Source: Nocardioides marmotae (GTDB lineage Bacteria; Actinomycetota; Actinomycetes; Propionibacteriales; Nocardioidaceae). Taken from it: a DNA stretch of 64,000 nt. The stretch covers positions 2,604,001-2,668,000 of the forward strand of contig NZ_CP053660.1 of assembly GCF_013177455.1 (NCBI RefSeq), written 5' to 3'. Below, one piece after another: positions 1 through 19,671 of the stretch. The stretch's first letter is position 1, and each line of letters opens with the position of its first letter. A program made the translations under genes and the position numbers. Below the pieces are notes generated by a model. It did no database searches. It was not told the origin of the DNA and saw only the letters and a program-made list of their open reading frames with translations.

Positions 1-2361
1 TGGATCTTCGTCGAGGTTGACGGTCCACGTCCCGCGTCGCTTACGGGAGAGCACGGCGACAGTACGACCTTTAACGCGATGTTCCTGGATTAGGCGGAGG
101 AGCGCCGGAGTCTGTCGGTCGTATTCACCGAAGGCGGCAGCCTCGATCGGCGATGGATCGAAGGTGTCTGCTGTGAACTCACGAATGTGGCCGCGCTCCA
201 TGCGCGCTGCCTGAGCCGGAGCCCCGCGGCCCCCCATGACGGTGTTGCCAAGCGTGACGAGTGTGGTGGCCGAGCGTCGGTTGGTCGCGAGGGCGAGTCG
301 GGTCGCATCCCGGAAGTCGGCTTCGAACGAACTGAAGTAGGCCGTGCTGGAGCCGGCGAACTCGTTGATGGCTTGCCAGTCGTCGCCCACGGCCATGACA
401 CGACACTTGGGGGATGTCCGCAAGATGGCATCGAGGAGCTCGAAGAACATCAAGGAGAAGTCTTGGAACTCGTCGACGACGATGTGTTCCAGCGTGCTCA
501 GATCGCCCTCGACTCTGCCGCCGCGGCCAAACGACGTGGTGCCTGTTCTCACCTTGTCGACGGCGCGCCACATGAGTCCAGTGAAGTCTTCCTTCGCGTC
601 GGCGGTGAGGCTGGCAGCGTAGGCGTCGAGAAGTTCGGCGCCGAGGTCGATGAATCGGTCGAGGTCGGGGTCGTCCATGCCCATGGTGGCCCAGGCCTGA
701 CGAAGATCCTCACCTGCCCAGCGGCGCTGTCGTGCGCGGCCGATGATCGTGGTCGTGGCGTCAGTGAACCTGTCCAGGGCGCGCTTCTTGATTCGGTGCC
801 ACAGCTCCTCATCGGTGAGTGGGTGCAGTGGCGCGCCGACGCTGCGGAGGTCTGCCAGCATCCTCTCCTCGAAGCCGGGCTTCGCGATGTCGCTCGGGAA
901 GTACTCCAGGAACACCTCGTCCCTCTCAGCCCAGAACTCGCGCTTGGCCTGGCTCTGACGGTCGTAGTCGGGGTCTCCTTGAAGGCCGAAGTACTCGATG
1001 ACGATTCGGCGCTTCTTGTTCTGGTCGTAGATGGAGAAGTCGGGCTTGTAGTTCTGACCGTTCCAACGCACATCGTGTTCGTAGCCGTAGTAGGACTCGG
1101 CTCCACGCCCGTCACCGGCGATGCCGTTGCTGAACAGGATGTTCGCGATGACCTTCTCGCCGTAAGACTTGACGAAGTCTCCCTTGATGCTCTCGTCCTG
1201 GAGGTGGCGCCGATACGCGAGTTGGTCCGTGGCCGAGAGGTTGTCGCCGCGTTCGAGGATCCGGCTCCAGTCACGCCGGAAGTAGGCGAGCATGACTTCA
1301 CGGACCAACTCTTCTTTGCCTGGCGTACGCATAAGTTCGTCCCGGACGTCCTGAACGTGCCTGTTGAGAGCTCGCATCGAGTCGGACCGATCAAACAGCA
1401 GGTTTTGGGACGGGTGGACGACTCGGTGGGCCAGCGCATGGAACGTCATGACATGAGGGACGCGTCCCTGCGGCAGCATCTTCTCCAGCCGGTCGCGCAT
1501 CTCGTCGGCGGCCGCCACGTTGAACGCAAGCATGAGAATGCGGCTCGGATCCACGCCGCAGGCTTGGATGAGGAAAACAGAGCGGGCCACCATCGTCGCT
1601 GTCTTGCCGCTGCCGGCGCGCGCACCGACCAGGGCGTGCCGTCCATGGGTCGCGATGGCGAGTGCCTGCGAGGTGTCGGGCACGAATGCTTTGCCATTGG
1701 GCATCGTCACGTTCGTGCGGCACCAGCCCGTGACATGGTTGACGAGCGCGTCCTGGAACTCCTGGACGCTGATGAGGTGGTCTGGATCGTTGTGGCGCAG
1801 CCATTCCGCCGCGCCGAGGAAGTGCTTTTCGATCTCGACTCGCAAGCGATCCATCAGCTGCTTCTTTTCCGCAGCGCGATCCCTCGCGCTGCGGTCCCGT
1901 TCCTCGCGCTCCAGTCGCCGGAGACGCTCCCGTTCGACCTCTTCGGCTGCGCGCTTGCTGGCCTGTTGTTCCGCATGTGCGCGTTCACGTTCTGCGCGGT
2001 GCGCTCGGCGTTCCTGCTCCTCGGCGTCGCGTTGTCGTCGTTTCTCCGCGGCACGCTCCGTTCGCTCCTCGTCGAGGACCTGTGCTCGGTCGCGGTTGAC
2101 CTTCGCTCGGAACGCAGCGATCGGCCCTTCGTCACGCTTCTCGGTCTGAACTAGGAGCAGTCCGAGCACCTCCCATTCCTCGAGATCGAGGTGCTTATGA
2201 AGAGATCCGAGGTTGACCCGTTCCTCGATGTTGCGCCCGGCCTCGGGTCCTGTCGAGATGACATGAGGGATGTGCTCGGCGAGGTACCAGGTCCGCCTCT
2301 CGGGCCAGTCACTCCAGGAGGCCAACAACTTGATGAGGAGCTGGCGCGCAGCGGCGTCCAT
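1..2361 (-). CDS. UvrD/Rep-type superfamily I DNA helicase, 3' end beyond the window
   Basis: The reading frame stays open from the ATG at 2361 to the window edge, so at least 787 residues are present and the C-terminus is missing. A GGGAGGGAGGAG ribosome site just before the ATG fixes the start. Residues about 80-210 are a charged, Glu/Arg-rich coiled coil. Walker A GARAGSGKT lies near residue 250 and motif II VDEFQD near 629. The gap between them is about 375 residues, much longer than in ordinary UvrD. It holds a PDF ... IEYFG segment (residues 437-460) that looks like an inserted PD-(D/E)XK-type fold, as in helicase-IV-like proteins; that part is inference. ATP-dependent unwinding of the element's DNA or repair is the likely role. 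It is transcribed divergently from the primase-polymerase gene. Confidence 0.85.
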   Translation of the reverse strand, partial: MDAAARQLLIKLLASWSDWPERRTWYLAEHIPHVISTGPEAGRNIEERVNLGSLHKHLDLEEWEVLGLLLVQTEKRDEGPIAAFRAKVNRDRAQVLDEERTERAAEKRRQRDAEEQERRAHRAERERAHAEQQASKRAAEEVERERLRRLEREERDRSARDRAAEKKQLMDRLRVEIEKHFLGAAEWLRHNDPDHLISVQEFQDALVNHVTGWCRTNVTMPNGKAFVPDTSQALAIATHGRHALVGARAGSGKTATMVARSVFLIQACGVDPSRILMLAFNVAAADEMRDRLEKMLPQGRVPHVMTFHALAHRVVHPSQNLLFDRSDSMRALNRHVQDVRDELMRTPGKEELVREVMLAYFRRDWSRILERGDNLSATDQLAYRRHLQDESIKGDFVKSYGEKVIANILFSNGIAGDGRGAESYYGYEHDVRWNGQNYKPDFSIYDQNKKRRIVIEYFGLQGDPDYDRQSQAKREFWAERDEVFLEYFPSDIAKPGFEERMLADLRSVGAPLHPLTDEELWHRIKKRALDRFTDATTTIIGRARQRRWAGEDLRQAWATMGMDDPDLDRFIDLGAELLDAYAASLTADAKEDFTGLMWRAVDKVRTGTTSFGRGGRVEGDLSTLEHIVVDEFQDFSLMFFELLDAILRTSPKCRVMAVGDDWQAINEFAGSSTAYFSSFEADFRDATRLALATNRRSATTLVTLGNTVMGGRGAPAQAARMERGHIREFTADTFDPSPIEAAAFGEYDRQTPALLRLIQEHRVKGRTVAVLSRKRRGTWTVNLDEDP

Positions 2362-6449: not shown

Positions 6450-7568
6450 ATGGGCATCAAGGTGCTCGCCGTCGGCGCTGCGGCCGCCGTACTCCTCGCA
6501 CCCGGCGCAGCCGTCCTCGGCGTCGCCACCCTGATCAGCCCGGCTGCCGCGGGATCGGGCAGCTGCATGTGGGACAACCATGCAACCGGGAGCCTCGGCG
6601 TCACCGGCCCCATCCCGGAGAGCCTCAGCGCGACCAACACCAACGGGGAAGCCGTTACTCTCGACCAGCAGCAGCTCACCCGCGCCGCGGTGATCATCGC
6701 CACCGGCCAAAGCGAGAACATCCCGGCCCGCGGCCAGCTGATCGCGATCATGACCGCGCTGACCGAGTCGTCGCTGCGTGTCCTGTCGAACACCGGCGCC
6801 TACCCGGACTCCGGCAACATCCCGAACGACGGCGACGGCAGCGACCACGATTCCGTCGGCCTCTTCCAGCAACGCCCCGCCGCGGGGTGGGGCAGCGTCG
6901 AGAACCTGATGGACCCTGTCTGGTCCTCCCGAGCCTTCTACGGCGGTCCCAGCGGCCCGAACCACGGCTCGCCGCGAGGCCTGCTCGACACCGACGGCTG
7001 GGCCTCGATGGACCCCGGCGTCGCGGCCCAGGCCGTCCAGGTCTCGGCCTATCCCGACCGCTACGCCGTCAACCAGCCGATCGCGGAGAAGGTCCTGGCG
7101 ACGCTGAGCGGCGTGTCGCTCTCGAGCGAGCTCGCGTGTGCTCAACCGGCGGGCGAGGTGCCGTTGAACCTCCCACCGGGGTTCGCTGGAGACTTCATCG
7201 AGGCCGCCGCATCGCAGCTCGGCAAGCCCTACGTGTGGGGCGGTGGCAACTTCGAGGGGCCGACAGGCAGCGGCTTCGACTGCTCCGGCCTCGTCCTCTA
7301 CGCCGCCTACCAGGCATCTGGCGGGCGCATCCGTCTCCCCCACTACTCCGGCGACCAGATCCATGCTGGGCAAAGCGTCGCCTGGGCCGACAAGCAGCCC
7401 GGCGACCTGATCTTCTTCAGCTACCCGGGCGCCGGCGGGCCGCACCACGTTGCTATCTACGTTGGCGGCGATCGGATCCTTCACGCGCCGCGGACCGGGG
7501 ACGTCGTGCGCTACGGGACGATCGGCGAGTTTTCAGGCGAGGTCATGACCGTTCGACGACTCGATTAA
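6450..7568 (+). CDS. Secreted NlpC/P60 peptidoglycan hydrolase of the transfer system
   Basis: The 372-residue product has an N-terminal signal or anchor segment (residues 1-35), a central region similar to those before NlpC/P60 domains in conjugative elements, and a C-terminal NlpC/P60 domain from about 248. The catalytic cysteine is Cys278 in FDCSG; histidines follow near 332 (HHVAIY) and 345 (ILHAP). It would open the cell wall for the transfer channel. Start ATG 6450 lies 7 bp after the previous stop. Its TAA overlaps the stop codon of the convergent ATPase gene in a TTAA palindrome. Confidence 0.9.
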   Translation: MGIKVLAVGAAAAVLLAPGAAVLGVATLISPAAAGSGSCMWDNHATGSLGVTGPIPESLSATNTNGEAVTLDQQQLTRAAVIIATGQSENIPARGQLIAIMTALTESSLRVLSNTGAYPDSGNIPNDGDGSDHDSVGLFQQRPAAGWGSVENLMDPVWSSRAFYGGPSGPNHGSPRGLLDTDGWASMDPGVAAQAVQVSAYPDRYAVNQPIAEKVLATLSGVSLSSELACAQPAGEVPLNLPPGFAGDFIEAAASQLGKPYVWGGGNFEGPTGSGFDCSGLVLYAAYQASGGRIRLPHYSGDQIHAGQSVAWADKQPGDLIFFSYPGAGGPHHVAIYVGGDRILHAPRTGDVVRYGTIGEFSGEVMTVRRLD

Positions 7569-9697
7569 CCCCTCGCCCGAATGAAATCGAGCAACTCCCG
7601 TCCCTCGAGCCGCTTCGTCTGGTTCCCCAGTCGGACATACAAGCCTGAGTCATTCACCAAGATCGGCTCCGCCGATGGCTCGACGACTACATGGCCGACA
7701 ACGCATCCGCGAACCTTGGGAAAGGTAACCGTCACACCCCGCATGACCGCAGCCTCTCCCAGGGCTCGACTGAGAAGGTCGCCGAGCAGCCAGCGTTCAT
7801 AACGGTCAACAGAGCTGTTGAAGAGCGCAAGATCCGGGTCAATACCCACCAGCGAGCCGTCGTCTGCGACGCCGATCAGTAGGTCGCCGCCGTCCGCGTT
7901 CATGAACGCCGCGACCGTTTTCAGGACGGCTTCCTCGATGTGCTTCGCCTTGCGCTCCTGCGTTGCGAGATCGATTCGCGCAGACGACTTGAACTCAAGC
8001 CGCTGGCCCTCTGGGGACGCCGCGAGAGCGATCAAGTCCCGCTCCTCCGCGCGAACAAGCCGCTTGATCGGACCTTGCCCCGCCAGAGCCCGCAGGGCAG
8101 TCAACGACTCGCTGAACCGATGCCCAGACTGAGAGCGGACGAGCAGTCCGAGGTCCTCTAGGCATTCCGCGGCCTCGCCAACCTCGCCGTCGTTGCGGAT
8201 CCAATCATTCAGCGAATCGGCATCGACATCGGGACTCAGGAGGTAAGCGGCATCCGGGTAGTGGAGTTCGAGAGCTTGGATTGTCTCGGCCCACGTGCGT
8301 GCCGCGCCACGTCGCCAGGTCTCGAGAACAGCCTCCACCGACCTCAGCGAAACGTCGGCGTCGTCGCCAATCTGTGAGGTTTCCTCAGACTCGATGCTTG
8401 AGCGCACAGCAGAGGCCAGTTGGCGAACGAAGAAGGGCCAGCCCCCTGTGACGCTATGAACAGCCGCGACCGCCTCGTCACTCCATCTCAGGAACATCGG
8501 GCGTCCGAGGCCCTTAATTAGGTCCGTGGTCTCCGTCGCTGAGAACGGGGTCATGAAGGTCGGATTGACCTGTCCAAACATCGGGTTGTCGACCCGTCCG
8601 TGCTCGGGACCCAGCGAACTCGACAGAAACACTTGGTTCGCGACACCGGAGAATACGAGGGACACGTTTGGAGCGACCTGAGCACACGACCGTAGGGCGC
8701 CGAGGAAAGCACGGACCTCCTGCGGGTCAGTCTTTGCCATCTGGACGAGGTGCTCGACCTCGTCAACAGCAATCACGATCCTGAGGCTGGGGTTCCTCGA
8801 CGCAATCCTGCGAACGCGATCAGCCAGATTGCCCACTGAAGCGCCGTCGACCAGGCCATCAGAATCGTTCCCGATGGTGACCCGCACCCCGGCAGCCGCT
8901 CTTGCAGCCCGGAGGTCTTCGAGGAGTGCGGTTAGCGCAGATCGCGCCACGTCGCCTAGCGAACTGGCTGTCACTAGTTGCATGTCAACGATCGTGATCA
9001 CGACACCTCGCGACAGCAAGGATCTCTTGAGTTCGCGGATGACCGAGGTCTTACCAGAGCGGCGCAACCCGAAGATCGCGATGTTCTGGTCGGCCAAAAC
9101 ACTCGACGACAAATCCCGAAGCAAACCCGCTCGTCCAAAGAAGTCATCGCCGGACACCGGGTTCTGCGCCTGATATAGGTCTCGATCACCGAGCCGTCCG
9201 CGGATCTCCTTCAGGAGCGCAACACGCATCTCGTGCGGGGCCATCGTCGTCAGAGCGGCAGCGTCCAGCACGACAATCGTCGTAGGGGAACTATCGTCGT
9301 GCGACCACTCGGCGACCTTCTTCGCCGCAGAAGCATCATTCGATACGACCACCGCCAGCTTGGTCGTCGGCGTGAATCTGACCTTCCCCAGCGACGAGCT
9401 CTGGCAGCCGTTCGAGATCTCGACCAAGTCGTTCGCGATGGCGTTATACGAGCGTCGCTGAAAGTCTCCCCACGGGGCGTGAAAGATCGCCACCTCGCCG
9501 CTGATGCCGAAGCGGCGCTCCACGTCCGTTCCAAGCCGAACGAGCGTGAACGTGAGGTTCTTCAGATCATCGTGCTCGACCTTGTCGGACAAGAAGAAGG
9601 TTGGGGTGGGATTGACCGAGGTCATCACGGCGTCGTCCAACGTGTGCACGAGCGGATGCTTCAGAAAGAACCGCTCGCGTACGTCTCGTAGCCCCAC
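7565..9697 (-). CDS. STAND-type P-loop ATPase with C-terminal Schlafen/AlbA_2 domain; candidate defence or cargo gene
   Basis: A 710-residue protein. Residues 1-170 are an alpha/beta region I cannot name. An NTPase module follows, led by a GDDFFGR box (about 182-188), with Walker A GLRRSGKTS near 210-218 and Walker B IVIAVDEVE with Asp312/Glu313. A helical region continues to about 560. The last 140 residues match the AlbA_2/Schlafen domain: EGQRLEFKSSARID, then AAFMNADGGDLLIGVADDG. A GTG at 9697 behind AGGGAG is chosen; TTG 9718 is the alternative. It lies on the opposite strand between two conserved transfer genes and has visibly less extreme GC3, so it looks like inserted cargo. A regulator role is possible. 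Confidence 0.85.
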   Translation of the reverse strand: MGLRDVRERFFLKHPLVHTLDDAVMTSVNPTPTFFLSDKVEHDDLKNLTFTLVRLGTDVERRFGISGEVAIFHAPWGDFQRRSYNAIANDLVEISNGCQSSSLGKVRFTPTTKLAVVVSNDASAAKKVAEWSHDDSSPTTIVVLDAAALTTMAPHEMRVALLKEIRGRLGDRDLYQAQNPVSGDDFFGRAGLLRDLSSSVLADQNIAIFGLRRSGKTSVIRELKRSLLSRGVVITIVDMQLVTASSLGDVARSALTALLEDLRAARAAAGVRVTIGNDSDGLVDGASVGNLADRVRRIASRNPSLRIVIAVDEVEHLVQMAKTDPQEVRAFLGALRSCAQVAPNVSLVFSGVANQVFLSSSLGPEHGRVDNPMFGQVNPTFMTPFSATETTDLIKGLGRPMFLRWSDEAVAAVHSVTGGWPFFVRQLASAVRSSIESEETSQIGDDADVSLRSVEAVLETWRRGAARTWAETIQALELHYPDAAYLLSPDVDADSLNDWIRNDGEVGEAAECLEDLGLLVRSQSGHRFSESLTALRALAGQGPIKRLVRAEERDLIALAASPEGQRLEFKSSARIDLATQERKAKHIEEAVLKTVAAFMNADGGDLLIGVADDGSLVGIDPDLALFNSSVDRYERWLLGDLLSRALGEAAVMRGVTVTFPKVRGCVVGHVVVEPSAEPILVNDSGLYVRLGNQTKRLEGRELLDFIRARG

Positions 9698-9852
9698 GTC
9701 GCTCCCTGTCGCACCCAAAGTTGTGGCTGGAACGCCCCCCGAACGGTACGAGACATCGGACCCGCTCGTGGTCGAATGCCGAAGTTGGTGACTTCAGGCG
9801 TGCGCGCTGGAAGAGCAGGGAAGAACCGGCGAACGTGGCTCACCTGTGGATC

Positions 9853-10143
9853 ATGGACGCTCGAGTGCGTAGCAGGGCAGCGGTCGGTCCCGACTTCGGT
9901 GCGCTTGGCGGCTCCGGAGACCTCCGCGCCATCGTCGGCGCGCTGCTGACCTACGGCCTGATCGTCGCCGTACTCATGCTCGTCATATCGGCGACCACGT
10001 GGGCAACCACATCGAGCTCAGGCAACTGGCACGCCGCGCAGAAGGCCAAAGCCGGCTGCTTCGTCGCGATCGGCGGGGCTGCTCTCACCGGCGCGGCACT
10101 CACCTGGGCCAACTGGCTGCTGGACATCGGGCCGCACCTATAA
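9853..10143 (+). CDS. Small two-helix membrane protein, DUF6112-like
   Basis: A 96-residue protein with the GGSGDLRAIVGALLTYGLIVAV-type first membrane helix, a short polar loop (SSGNWHAAQKAKAG) and a second helix ending near the C-terminus. This is the pattern I know as DUF6112 in actinobacterial conjugative elements. The role may be a pilin-like or channel subunit comparable to VirB2; this is inference. ATG 9853 is used; GTG 9835 in the same frame is possible. It is paralogous to the next gene. Confidence 0.75.
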   Translation: MDARVRSRAAVGPDFGALGGSGDLRAIVGALLTYGLIVAVLMLVISATTWATTSSSGNWHAAQKAKAGCFVAIGGAALTGAALTWANWLLDIGPHL

Positions 10144-10175: not shown

Positions 10176-10481
10176 ATGGTCCTTCCCGCTACAGCCCTCC
10201 TGCTTCCACTCGACATCGAGATCGATCCGAACTCGAACGGGCTCCCGGGCATCGGCGAGCTCAAGCAGATCGTCGGCGCCTCGATGACGGTCGGGCTGAT
10301 CCTCGCCGTGCTCGCCCTGATCATCTCCGCGATCGTGTGGGCTCTCGGCGCGAACTCGAGCAACCCGCACCTCGCGGGCAGGGGCAAGCTCGGCGTACTC
10401 GTCGCCGTGGGCGCTGCGATCGTCTGCGGCGCCTCGGTGACGCTCGTGAACTTCTTCTGGAACGTCGGCCAGCAGGTCTGA
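10176..10481 (+). CDS. Second DUF6112-like small membrane protein
   Basis: A 101-residue protein preceded by AGGAG. After a hydrophobic N-terminus it shows the same layout as its upstream neighbour: GIGELKQIVGASMTVGLILAV, a short polar loop, then a second helix and a terminal W/NVGQQV. The shared positions show a tandem duplication with divergence. It probably forms part of the transfer channel or a pilus-like structure together with its paralog and the TrbL-like protein 11 bp downstream. Confidence 0.75.
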   Translation: MVLPATALLLPLDIEIDPNSNGLPGIGELKQIVGASMTVGLILAVLALIISAIVWALGANSSNPHLAGRGKLGVLVAVGAAIVCGASVTLVNFFWNVGQQV

Positions 10482-16638: not shown

Positions 16639-17105
16639 AGATCCCCGTCGTCCTGAGCATTGTTCACGTCGCCATCGACGCCGACGGCATGATGGCGGTC
16701 GACGTCGACGTCGACGGCGTCACGCGCGAATCCGAACAGCGCAGAACACGCGGTGACCTTCGCGCTGTCATCGACGAGATCACCTCCGAACTCGGCGCGC
16801 CCGTGCGCGTCGAGATACGCGAGGCCGACGGATCGACGTACTCCGACATCGCAACTCCCCCAGAATCCCCGGCACCAGCGGCGGCGGAGCCGCCACCCAA
16901 CCCGTCTACTCCGGCGCTCGCAGGTGCCGGATTCCAGCCAGGCGAGGAGGTCGCACTGGCGTACGTCGTCGTACGCCAGAACGCCGATGCGGAAGGCAAC
17001 GCTTCACTCAACCTCCCGCCCGCGCTTCTAGCTGCAACCCGCGGCGGGCTTGTGCTCCTCGGGATGAGCTCACGGACAGTCACCCCGTTCGAGGCGCCGG
17101 CATGA
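16635..17105 (+). CDS. Unknown transfer-region protein, 156 aa
   Basis: It starts at an ATGA overlap with the ArdC-like gene and ends in an ATGA overlap with the coupling protein gene. An N-terminal beta-rich domain (residues 1-68) is joined by a Pro/Ala-rich linker to a C-terminal part with QPGEEVALAYVVVRQNADAEGNASLNLPPALLA. No catalytic motif is seen. Its fixed place beside the VirD4-like gene suggests an adaptor or accessory to the coupling protein, by inference only. Confidence 0.7.
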   Translation: MKIPVVLSIVHVAIDADGMMAVDVDVDGVTRESEQRRTRGDLRAVIDEITSELGAPVRVEIREADGSTYSDIATPPESPAPAAAEPPPNPSTPALAGAGFQPGEEVALAYVVVRQNADAEGNASLNLPPALLAATRGGLVLLGMSSRTVTPFEAPA

Positions 17106-18817
17106 ACCCCGCTGCACGTGGTGCGAATGACGAACTCGTGAACCTGGCACTCATCGGCCTCATGGCGGCATTCGTTCTCGCGCTCGTTCTCCGCTCCGCT
17201 GCATCGGCGGCGGCGGTAGCGACCGGTACGGCCATGCCCGAAAGCGGGATCGCGAGCAGCCTGCGTGTCCTCACCGATCCGGGCGAACCTGCGCGCGCCT
17301 TCGAAGCTCCCGGGTTGTCAGCGCTCGCCTATTGGAGCGTGGTGATGCTGTTCATCGGCGTCCTCGCGGCACTCGCCTGGCGCGTGTGGAGACTGGTCGC
17401 CCGCCTCCGGCACCGGACTGCTCGAGATCCTCACCGGATCCAGGGCACCGCAACCGCACGGGACATCGACACGACGGCGTCAAGGAAGGCCCTCGTACGA
17501 CGCGCCGCCACCCTCCGCCCCTCGTTGCGGCACCCGAGGGCGACCGACGTCGGGTACCTGATCGGACGCAGCTGTGGCCGGGAGATCTGGGCGTCGGTCG
17601 AGGACTCCATCCTCGTCATCGGCCCCCCGCGCTCCGGCAAGGGCCTGCACCTCGTCATCAACGCCATCCTCAACGCGCCCGGCGCCGTCGTCACCACCTC
17701 CACCCGGCCGGACAACATCGCCGCCACCATCGACGCGCGCAAGGAACGCGGCCCGGTCGCCGTATTCGACCCACAGCACCTCACCGCGGGACTGCCCGCA
17801 GTCGGGGACAACGGAGTCCGGTGGTCCCCGATCCGCGGCTGTGAGCAGCCTCTGACCGCGATGATCCGCGCTTCAGGCCTGGCGTCGTCGACCGGGCTCT
17901 CCTCCGGCGGCACGGAGTCTGGCGGATTCTGGGAAGGCAAGGCCCGCTCCGCGATCCAGGCTTTGCTCCACGCCGCCGCGCTCGAGCACCTCCCGACTCG
18001 AGCCCTCTTCGAGTGGTCCCTGTCCGCCTCAGCAGCAACCGACGCCGTCGGCATCCTCGCCAGCCATCGCCACGCCGCCGCCGGATGGTCGGACTCGCTC
18101 GAAGGCATGATCAGCTCCGACCCGCGCACCCGCGACTCCATCTGGATGGCTGTCGCGCAAGCCCTCTCCTGCCTCGCCGACCCCGCCGTTCTGGACGCTG
18201 TCAGCCCGGCGGCCGGCGAGGCGTTCGACCCTCGTGACTTCCTCACCAAGAACGGCGCGCTCTACCTGCTCGCCACGGGTGCGGGCGCGGGTGCCTCGTG
18301 GCCGCTCGTCGCTGCGTTCATGGAGGACCTCACCGAGGTCGCGCGCCACCTCGCCGCCGCGTCACCCGGCGCACGCCTGGACCCTCCCGTCCTCATGGCC
18401 CTCGACGAGATCGGCAACCTCGCCCCACTCCCCTCCCTGCCCGTCCTGATGGCGGAAGGTGGCGGAACCGGCATCACCACCATGCCTGTGCTCCAGTCGC
18501 TCGCCCAGGCCCGCAACAAGTGGGGCGACCATGCCGCCAGCACCATTTGGGACGCCTCGATCGTCAAGGTCATCCTCGGCGGTGCCTCCGCCTCGCGCGA
18601 CCTTCAGGAGCTGTCGGTGTTGGTCGGCGAACGCGAGGAGCGCTCAGACACCACGAGCATCGGCGACTATGGCCAGCGATCGCTCCAGCGATCGACCCGC
18701 CGAGTCCCGGTCATGCCACCGGAGCGGATCCGAACCCTGCCGTTCGGCACCGGCCTCGTTCTTCTCCGCAGCGCCCCGCCGATCATCGTCGACCTCCGAC
18801 GCTGGACGTCTCGGTAG
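17102..18817 (+). CDS. VirD4/TraG-type coupling protein
   Basis: A 571-residue protein with two N-terminal membrane helices (about 13-35 and 76-100), Walker A GPPRSGKG ending near residue 181, Walker B LMALDEIGNLAPLPSLP near 425-440, and the downstream GITTMPVLQSLAQARNKWG block typical of TraG/VirD4. It links the DNA-relaxase complex to the transfer channel. It ends the ATGA/GTGA-coupled operon that begins at 13668. A relaxase is not visible in the window. Confidence 0.92.
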   Translation: MNPAARGANDELVNLALIGLMAAFVLALVLRSAASAAAVATGTAMPESGIASSLRVLTDPGEPARAFEAPGLSALAYWSVVMLFIGVLAALAWRVWRLVARLRHRTARDPHRIQGTATARDIDTTASRKALVRRAATLRPSLRHPRATDVGYLIGRSCGREIWASVEDSILVIGPPRSGKGLHLVINAILNAPGAVVTTSTRPDNIAATIDARKERGPVAVFDPQHLTAGLPAVGDNGVRWSPIRGCEQPLTAMIRASGLASSTGLSSGGTESGGFWEGKARSAIQALLHAAALEHLPTRALFEWSLSASAATDAVGILASHRHAAAGWSDSLEGMISSDPRTRDSIWMAVAQALSCLADPAVLDAVSPAAGEAFDPRDFLTKNGALYLLATGAGAGASWPLVAAFMEDLTEVARHLAAASPGARLDPPVLMALDEIGNLAPLPSLPVLMAEGGGTGITTMPVLQSLAQARNKWGDHAASTIWDASIVKVILGGASASRDLQELSVLVGEREERSDTTSIGDYGQRSLQRSTRRVPVMPPERIRTLPFGTGLVLLRSAPPIIVDLRRWTSR

Positions 18818-18912: not shown

Positions 18913-19671
18913 TCACATCAGGTGGAGGCGCTTTAGCAGGCTCGCAAGTTGCGTTGGCTCGTAAGCGTTTCCGAAGTCGGGATGGATGTTTTGCTTGGCC
19001 GGGTCGAGCCCCAGCCACACTTGTGTCGGTGTGTTGAGCCCGATGAAGGCGCGAGCTGGTGGCACGTCGCCACGTTCCAGGCGCTCGTGCTCAGGCGAGT
19101 AGGGCGCGTCCTTCATCAGACACACGTCGAGCGTTCCATCAGTGGCGTGTACGCGGAGAACTAGAAGGGCGGTGAACGGCCCGGTACCGACTTCGCGGTC
19201 GTTGTCTCCGGTCGAAGGTCCGTCCGGCCAAGGGGTCTCGTAGTGCCATATTGCTCCCATGCCCGGCACGAAGTCGGCCGCCGTCAGCACTGGCCGAGTC
19301 CGGGCGGAGTCGGCGTAGCCCTTTGCCTCGGACGCTATCCACCGCGCGTCAGCCTCGGTGAGAGGAAACTCTGCCGTGGAGCCGATCCTGTCCAGAACGC
19401 CCTCGATGAAGTCGTCGTCTTCCGAGTCAACTGCCTCGTCCATTAGTCCCCAGTCGACCTCTGAGCCAGGCAACTCCGACTTCACCGCGCCTCCCGCGAC
19501 TTCCATCATCGAGGCACGAAGAAAGGAACGGTCAGATCGGGAAAGCTCACAGGCGTCGTGCACGGCGTACAGCCGCTTGAGCAGTGAGTCCTGATGTCCA
19601 GCATCCAGTGCCTTGAACGAAGGCGCGTAGCGCAAGAGAGACAATCGGTGTGCATATCGCTGCGTGGGCAT
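18913..19671 (-). CDS. Unknown cargo protein, 252 aa
   Basis: A soluble acidic protein on the strand opposite to the transfer operons. The N-terminal half is helical (ALDAGHQDSLLKRLYAVHDACELS), the middle very acidic (EAVDSEDDDFIEG), and the C-terminal half beta-rich with conserved-looking tryptophans (GAIWHYETPWPDGP). I recognise no family. Codon use is slightly less GC-extreme than in the transfer genes. It has no close partner, so a single-gene cargo function is possible. It is convergent with the VirD4-like gene. Confidence 0.7.
   Translation of the reverse strand: MPTQRYAHRLSLLRYAPSFKALDAGHQDSLLKRLYAVHDACELSRSDRSFLRASMMEVAGGAVKSELPGSEVDWGLMDEAVDSEDDDFIEGVLDRIGSTAEFPLTEADARWIASEAKGYADSARTRPVLTAADFVPGMGAIWHYETPWPDGPSTGDNDREVGTGPFTALLVLRVHATDGTLDVCLMKDAPYSPEHERLERGDVPPARAFIGLNTPTQVWLGLDPAKQNIHPDFGNAYEPTQLASLLKRLHLM

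Follow-up and report, generated by a model that had tools for sequence, protein, structure and literature searches.

Gene and insertion site

The stretch of DNA analysed here (the window; 64,000 nucleotides of Nocardioides marmotae, contig NZ_CP053660.1, positions 2,604,001 to 2,668,000) carries a conjugation operon that is interrupted by an oppositely oriented gene. This gene encodes a 710-residue protein whose C-terminal SLFN_AlbA_2 domain is preceded by an N-terminal domain and a STAND-like P-loop ATPase. The gene is carried as cargo by the conjugative element and is probably a mobile defence gene for a STAND-controlled ribonuclease (RNase). The following features define the locus:

7565..9697, minus strand: STAND-like ATPase / SLFN_AlbA_2 gene, 710 residues, GTG start (open reading frame, Pfam, full-length orthologues)
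6450..7568, plus strand: NlpC/P60 hydrolase gene, left flank (Pfam E 4e-22; start inferred from orthologues)
9853..10143, plus strand: DUF6112 gene, right flank (Pfam E 3e-30; start from comparison of related elements)
7569..9852, no strand: interval of variable cargo, bounded by NlpC/P60 and DUF6112; in related elements closed or otherwise filled
10176..10481, plus strand: second small conjugation-operon gene beside DUF6112, conserved in related elements
17102..18817, plus strand: gene for a TraG/TraD-type coupling protein in the same element (Pfam TraG-D_C E 4e-27)

The gene is tail to tail with the NlpC/P60 gene, with overlapping stop codons, and divergent from DUF6112. Its open frame spans 7565-9718 (minus strand) and also offers a TTG start at 9718, which would yield 717 residues. 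The GTG at 9697 is the likelier start because it aligns with the ATG at which orthologue L003 begins and is directly preceded by GGGAG; residues are numbered from this codon. A chance frame is ruled out by three full-length orthologues with 43-46% identity. The G+C content of the gene is 0.61-0.63, compared to about 0.70 in the operon on its left and 0.65-0.71 on its right, and its own genome contains one copy.

Related elements of the same genus were found via the NlpC/P60 protein and the stretch downstream was read, which gave 13 informative elements. The initial annotation had taken the two flanking genes for normal neighbours and the gene between them for a single cargo gene. The comparison confirmed both and showed the site to be variable. 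In six of the 13 elements (L103, L107, L108, L109, L111, L112) only 19-86 bp separate NlpC/P60 from DUF6112; the other seven (L099-L102, L104-L106) carry unrelated inserts of 0.47-2.5 kb in this interval. The STAND/AlbA_2 gene is absent from the region in all 13. Since the interval is closed or filled by unrelated inserts, it is a variable cargo site. One of the inserts encodes an 800-residue NERD-UvrD-cold-shock protein that resembles the PADLOC candidate C3a187, and another gives a weak GIY-YIG match. L111 and L112 have 1.2-1.5 kb of inserted sequence one gene beyond the interval. The cargo of the region thus differs between elements (L099-L102, L104-L106, L111, L112), and several of these genes are of unknown function.

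Domain architecture

Along the protein, the following parts can be assigned, all on the minus strand:

9188..9697, residues 1-170: N-terminal domain, kept across the wider family (alignment A3); weak restriction-endonuclease-like fold, no catalytic lysine
8393..9151, residues ~183-435: P-loop ATPase core, AAA_22/nSTAND1, ORC/Cdc6 and archaeal ATPase_2-like (Pfam, VIA-align)
9044..9070, residues 210-218: Walker A GLRRSGKTS; G210-R212 and G215-S218 invariant in 11 relatives
8753..8776, residues 308-315: Walker B VIAVDEVE; D312, E313 and E315 invariant
8063..8380, residues ~440-545: helical / winged-helix-like linker (secondary structure of the model)
7607..8011, residues 563-697: SLFN_AlbA_2 domain (Pfam E 2e-12; VIA-align Z 12-13 to 3lmm and SAMD9 7ksp/9o0d)
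8009..8011: E563, aligned with Schlafen13 E205
7994..7996: E568, aligned with Schlafen13 E210
7862..7864: D612, aligned with Schlafen13 D248

The architecture of a STAND-like ATPase with C-terminal AlbA_2, first proposed from the bare sequence, is supported by Pfam domains, orthologues and VIA-align superposition, and both Walker motifs stand as initially described, Walker B having the hhhhDE pattern of STAND NTPases. Pfam matches the core to AAA_22 (34.6 bits, cut-off 27, E 2.8e-8) and, just over the cut-off of 27.1, to nSTAND1 (30.8 bits, E 3e-7). The GxP motif of STAND proteins is present as GGWP at residues 418-421 and as GG[MY]P in the three orthologues; it is not kept in the clade of relatives that are encoded in operons with predicted HEPN genes (see below). 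After the NTPase, the predicted model shows helices and strands at residues 440-540.

The match of the C-terminal part to PF04326 (48.1 bits versus a cut-off of 25.3) is also above cut-off in all three orthologues. Foldseek and VIA-align relate its fold to DIP2311 (3lmm, Z 13.0) and to SAMD9 (7ksp, Z 12.5; 9o0d, Z 12.0), with superposition on the SAMD9 tRNase domain covering 151-157 residues at 3.5-3.6 Å; Foldseek also matches Schlafen structures. The putative active site of Schlafen13 consists of E205, E210 and D248: exchange of either glutamate for alanine (E205A, E210A) abolishes activity, and tRNA cleavage drops when any one of these residues is mutated (PMC5862951). SAMD9, which cuts tRNA-Phe, has the active residues E184/E196/E218/D241 (PMC13245274). 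The putative catalytic residues E563, E568 and D612 are invariant in the 710-residue protein and its orthologues L002-L004. The spacing of the two glutamates is five here as in Schlafen13, and the aspartate lies two residues past the V of a GV pair; the register of both glutamates was aligned by hand, HMMER having aligned this stretch otherwise.

In a tree of AlbA_2 domains the four STAND-linked domains group together, and the nearest kin of this group are not resolved. The initial annotation had regarded the C-terminal position of AlbA_2 as unusual, which did not hold. In the same phylum the module is C-terminal on five BrxL ATPases (L025/L122, 8439-10469 on the minus strand; L030, L031, L033, L036) and on five GmrSD_N (DUF262) proteins (L015, L016, L021, L028, L057). 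In L122, BrxC, PglX and PglZ accompany the BrxL-AlbA_2 gene in a BREX locus; in L123, which is the L033 locus, BrxC and PglX are present. The domains that a survey of BREX systems describes for the C-terminus of BrxL are LonP or an HKD nuclease (PMC12839542).

For the N-terminal domain, neither Pfam nor Foldseek gave a significant family. Its AlphaFold2 model is fair (predicted local distance difference test, pLDDT, 78; predicted template modelling score, pTM, 0.77), and the best structural matches by VIA-align are mostly restriction-endonuclease-like (EcoT38I, FokI, Can2, EndoMS) and weak (Z 5-7.6). Position 68 is acidic across the family with no lysine at +2 (alignment A3). Our guess from this model would be a possibly inactive restriction-endonuclease-like domain that perhaps serves as sensor or scaffold.

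Relatives with exchanged putative effectors

Residues ~1-530 have relatives that lack AlbA_2, and profile A3 aligns their N-domain and ATPase. Six loci (L072-L076, L121) have a two-gene operon form in which the ATPase relative is followed by a second gene for a protein of 369-433 residues, an unannotated family of predicted HEPN RNases:

L072 6622-7842; L073 9413-10687; L074 9389-10501: predicted HEPN RNase partners after the ATPase gene
L075 6529-7830; L076 9359-10492; L121 8963-10072: predicted HEPN RNase partners after the ATPase gene

None of the six partner genes has a confident Pfam match. All six proteins share the invariant motifs R376-[NH]-x3-H381 and E283-x3-R287. As HEPN signatures are Rx4-6H with a polar residue after the arginine and Ex3[KR] (PMC3710099), the Rx4H and Ex3R motifs of the partners fit both in every case. 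One partner also matches the PADLOC candidate PDC-M34B. Two further loci (L077, L078) show a kinase form, in which a protein kinase is fused to the C-terminus of the ATPase relative (E 1e-24 to 1e-26). The three types, with AlbA_2, HEPN operon and kinase, separate with strong support in a tree built from the region they share, for which the program gave a warning about long branches meeting. An N-terminal IF2_N domain in some ATPase relatives (L074 7650-9392, Pfam E 3e-12; L050 and L121 by eye) may connect them to translation.

The main argument for AlbA_2 as the effector comes from this comparison, because the relatives carry a kinase in its place or work beside a predicted RNase.

Distribution and genomic context

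A scan of 84,980 species genomes, which was seeded by short exact peptides and hence finds close relatives only, yielded three full-length orthologues, in Intrasporangium flavum (L002), Actinomycetales bacterium SN12 (L003) and Rhodococcus sp. BP22 (L004), all with the three parts present and 43-46% identical over the whole length. Apart from the genome of the window itself, the full-length form was found in none of the 146 other genomes of the genus that were searched. N-domain and ATPase core together occur in at least five of 395 genomes of the class, a lower bound because this search scored three candidates per genome. On these counts, conservation throughout the genus was rejected, and so was a housekeeping role, a case that the initial annotation had raised.

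The phage collection searched contained no match to the STAND/AlbA_2 protein. Among viral contigs, a first scan gave nothing and a second scan with alignment A1 retrieved only distant ATPase-only proteins from two phage contigs. On these near-identical contigs the relative, of 356 residues, is encoded antisense between tail genes (L114 7998-9068, L115 4450-5520). The suggestion that the gene belongs to a system not yet described agrees with the absence of a fitting system model in PADLOC-DB 2.0.0, where the best match is mad8 (E 1e-4 over 58 residues). A sequence search of the PDB gave weak Schlafen matches only, and in the open-access literature we found no paper describing the form with N-domain, STAND and AlbA_2.

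In the loci examined one by one, relatives are located on mobile elements or close to restriction or defence genes. About 2 kb away from L003 lies a locus encoding a C5 methyltransferase, with a GmrSD/DUF262-like gene as well as MzaC/MzaD-like genes, and L078 adjoins type I restriction genes. The surroundings of L002 include a resolvase, a D5-type primase and a macro-domain gene; L121 lies near a TrwC relaxase and AbiEii, and L073 within a pSAM2-type element (RepSA). By eye, L074 and L076 also appear element-borne.

Proposed function and alternative explanations

We lean, by a modest degree, towards the view that the gene, as cargo of an integrative conjugative element, is a defence system in itself and encodes a STAND-controlled putative Schlafen-type RNase. 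The ATPase would act as a nucleotide-controlled switch, turned off while the cell is at rest. Sensing of a product from a phage or plasmid, through the N-domain and/or the helical part that follows the ATPase, would permit ATP binding and oligomerisation. AlbA_2 would then be activated as a metal-dependent RNase, with tRNA as the most likely target, and translation and growth would be halted before the invader completes its cycle (abortive infection). In the relatives the same N-domain and ATPase would drive either a HEPN RNase encoded by a separate gene or a C-terminal protein kinase. More tentatively, and with somewhat less confidence than doubt, these proteins could form a mobile actinobacterial family of defence switches with interchangeable effectors (Schlafen-type tRNase, HEPN RNase or kinase), in which case the Schlafen form would correspond in function to SAMD9/9L, as a bacterial protein with reversed domain order.

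Several observations weigh against an RNase defence gene of this kind. nSTAND1 is under the cut-off in L003 and L004, and the model of the full-length protein is modest (pLDDT 69, pTM 0.32). There is no long sensor repeat region: about 130 residues separate ATPase and AlbA_2, and no Pfam repeat family is found in the protein. We therefore term it STAND-like, since it lacks the large C-terminal repeat region that serves STAND NTPases as sensor. The E/E/D triad is retained in 52-55 of 55 AlbA_2 domains collected and for this reason indicates an undamaged domain but is not diagnostic of RNase activity. The HEPN assignment of the partners relies on motifs and weak profile matches (HEPN_Swt1, E 0.17 in one of six; PDC-M34B, E 0.001), and the contexts of relatives are descriptions of individual loci and not a measure of enrichment for defence neighbours.

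In the prokaryotic antiviral STANDs that have been characterised, the nuclease is N-terminal and the sensor C-terminal (reviewed in PMC13245274). If the protein followed this canonical polarity, the N-terminal restriction-endonuclease-like domain would be the effector, and AlbA_2 would sense RNA or DNA of the invader. The resemblance of the N-domain model to the restriction-endonuclease-fold proteins named above would fit such an arrangement. However, every match of the N-domain has a Z below 8, the acidic residue 68 comes without the ExK lysine, and the N-domain is the constant part of the family, whereas the AlbA_2 position is exchanged for a kinase or replaced by a separate HEPN-like gene. 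We consider canonical polarity unlikely. An addiction module or a module for competition between elements, with the same switch and RNase triggered by loss of the element or entry of a competing one, appears about equally improbable: the recurrent location on conjugative or integrative elements would agree with it, but no antitoxin-like second gene is apparent in the window or shared beside the orthologues. We give still less weight to a regulator of the conjugative element that would use AlbA_2 as a DNA-binding regulator or exclusion factor and play no part in phage defence. AlbA_2 has earlier been described as a putative DNA-binding domain (PMC5445408) and the gene is antisense inside the conjugation operon, yet it is missing in the 13 related elements with the same operon, and its orthologues lie outside the conjugation operon, beside restriction or other loci.

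Comparison with known systems

The closest working analogy to the proposed STAND-controlled RNase is SAMD9. In animals, SAMD9 and SAMD9L are STAND-like antiviral proteins that cut tRNA with their AlbA_2 domain, and the bacterial protein has the same two working parts, an AlbA_2 domain of tRNase type (fold Z ~12) and a STAND-like P-loop NTPase, in one polypeptide. By this analogy, its working plan resembles that of animal SAMD9/9L. Bacterial SAMD9 proteins, with members in actinomycetes, also exchange AlbA_2 for a kinase (PMC5445408). The SAMD9 family is characterised by GGT/S instead of GKT/S in Walker A and by the order AlbA_2, SIR2-like, NTPase, TPR and OB (PMC5445408), whereas the 710-residue protein has the usual GKT/S (GLRRSGKTS), carries AlbA_2 last and lacks SIR2, TPR and OB by Pfam; animal SAMD9/9L also exceed 1,500 residues. 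Membership in the SAMD9 family was rejected on Walker A and domain order.

With the antiviral STANDs (Avs) the protein shares an NTPase of the STAND class that would be expected to link sensing to a nuclease; it also has a Foldseek match to Avs3. It differs in lacking the long C-terminal sensor, which in Avs recognises phage proteins, and in having the proposed effector at the opposite end, the effector of Avs being N-terminal. The BrxL proteins with C-terminal AlbA_2 likewise place the same module behind a defence ATPase, but their ATPase is of the MCM type and belongs to the multi-gene BREX system. Bacterial Schlafens have been reported as anti-phage RNases by Taboada et al. 2025, as cited in PMC12839542; according to that citation, they would share with our protein the use of an AlbA_2/Schlafen RNase against phages. 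Systems that combine a STAND module with either a GT4 or a HEPN effector are already known (PMC8195603) and are similar in that the module is paired with exchangeable effectors including HEPN. In those systems, which we compared by description and not by homology, the STAND is inactive and AlbA_2 does not occur.

If the proposed function is correct, this compact bacterial protein, together with relatives in which a different RNase takes the place of its own, would permit direct tests of how a STAND module controls a Schlafen RNase and of what triggers it. The interval between NlpC/P60 and DUF6112 in these conjugative elements would then be a place to seek more defence cargo.

Two other genes in the window are possibly cargo. 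An opposite-strand open reading frame of 252 residues with low G+C and no Pfam match (18913-19671, minus strand) adjoins the coupling-protein gene. At the edge of the element, a UvrD/REP-type helicase gene with a lower G+C content of 0.63-0.64 (1-2361, minus strand) runs past the left end of the window.
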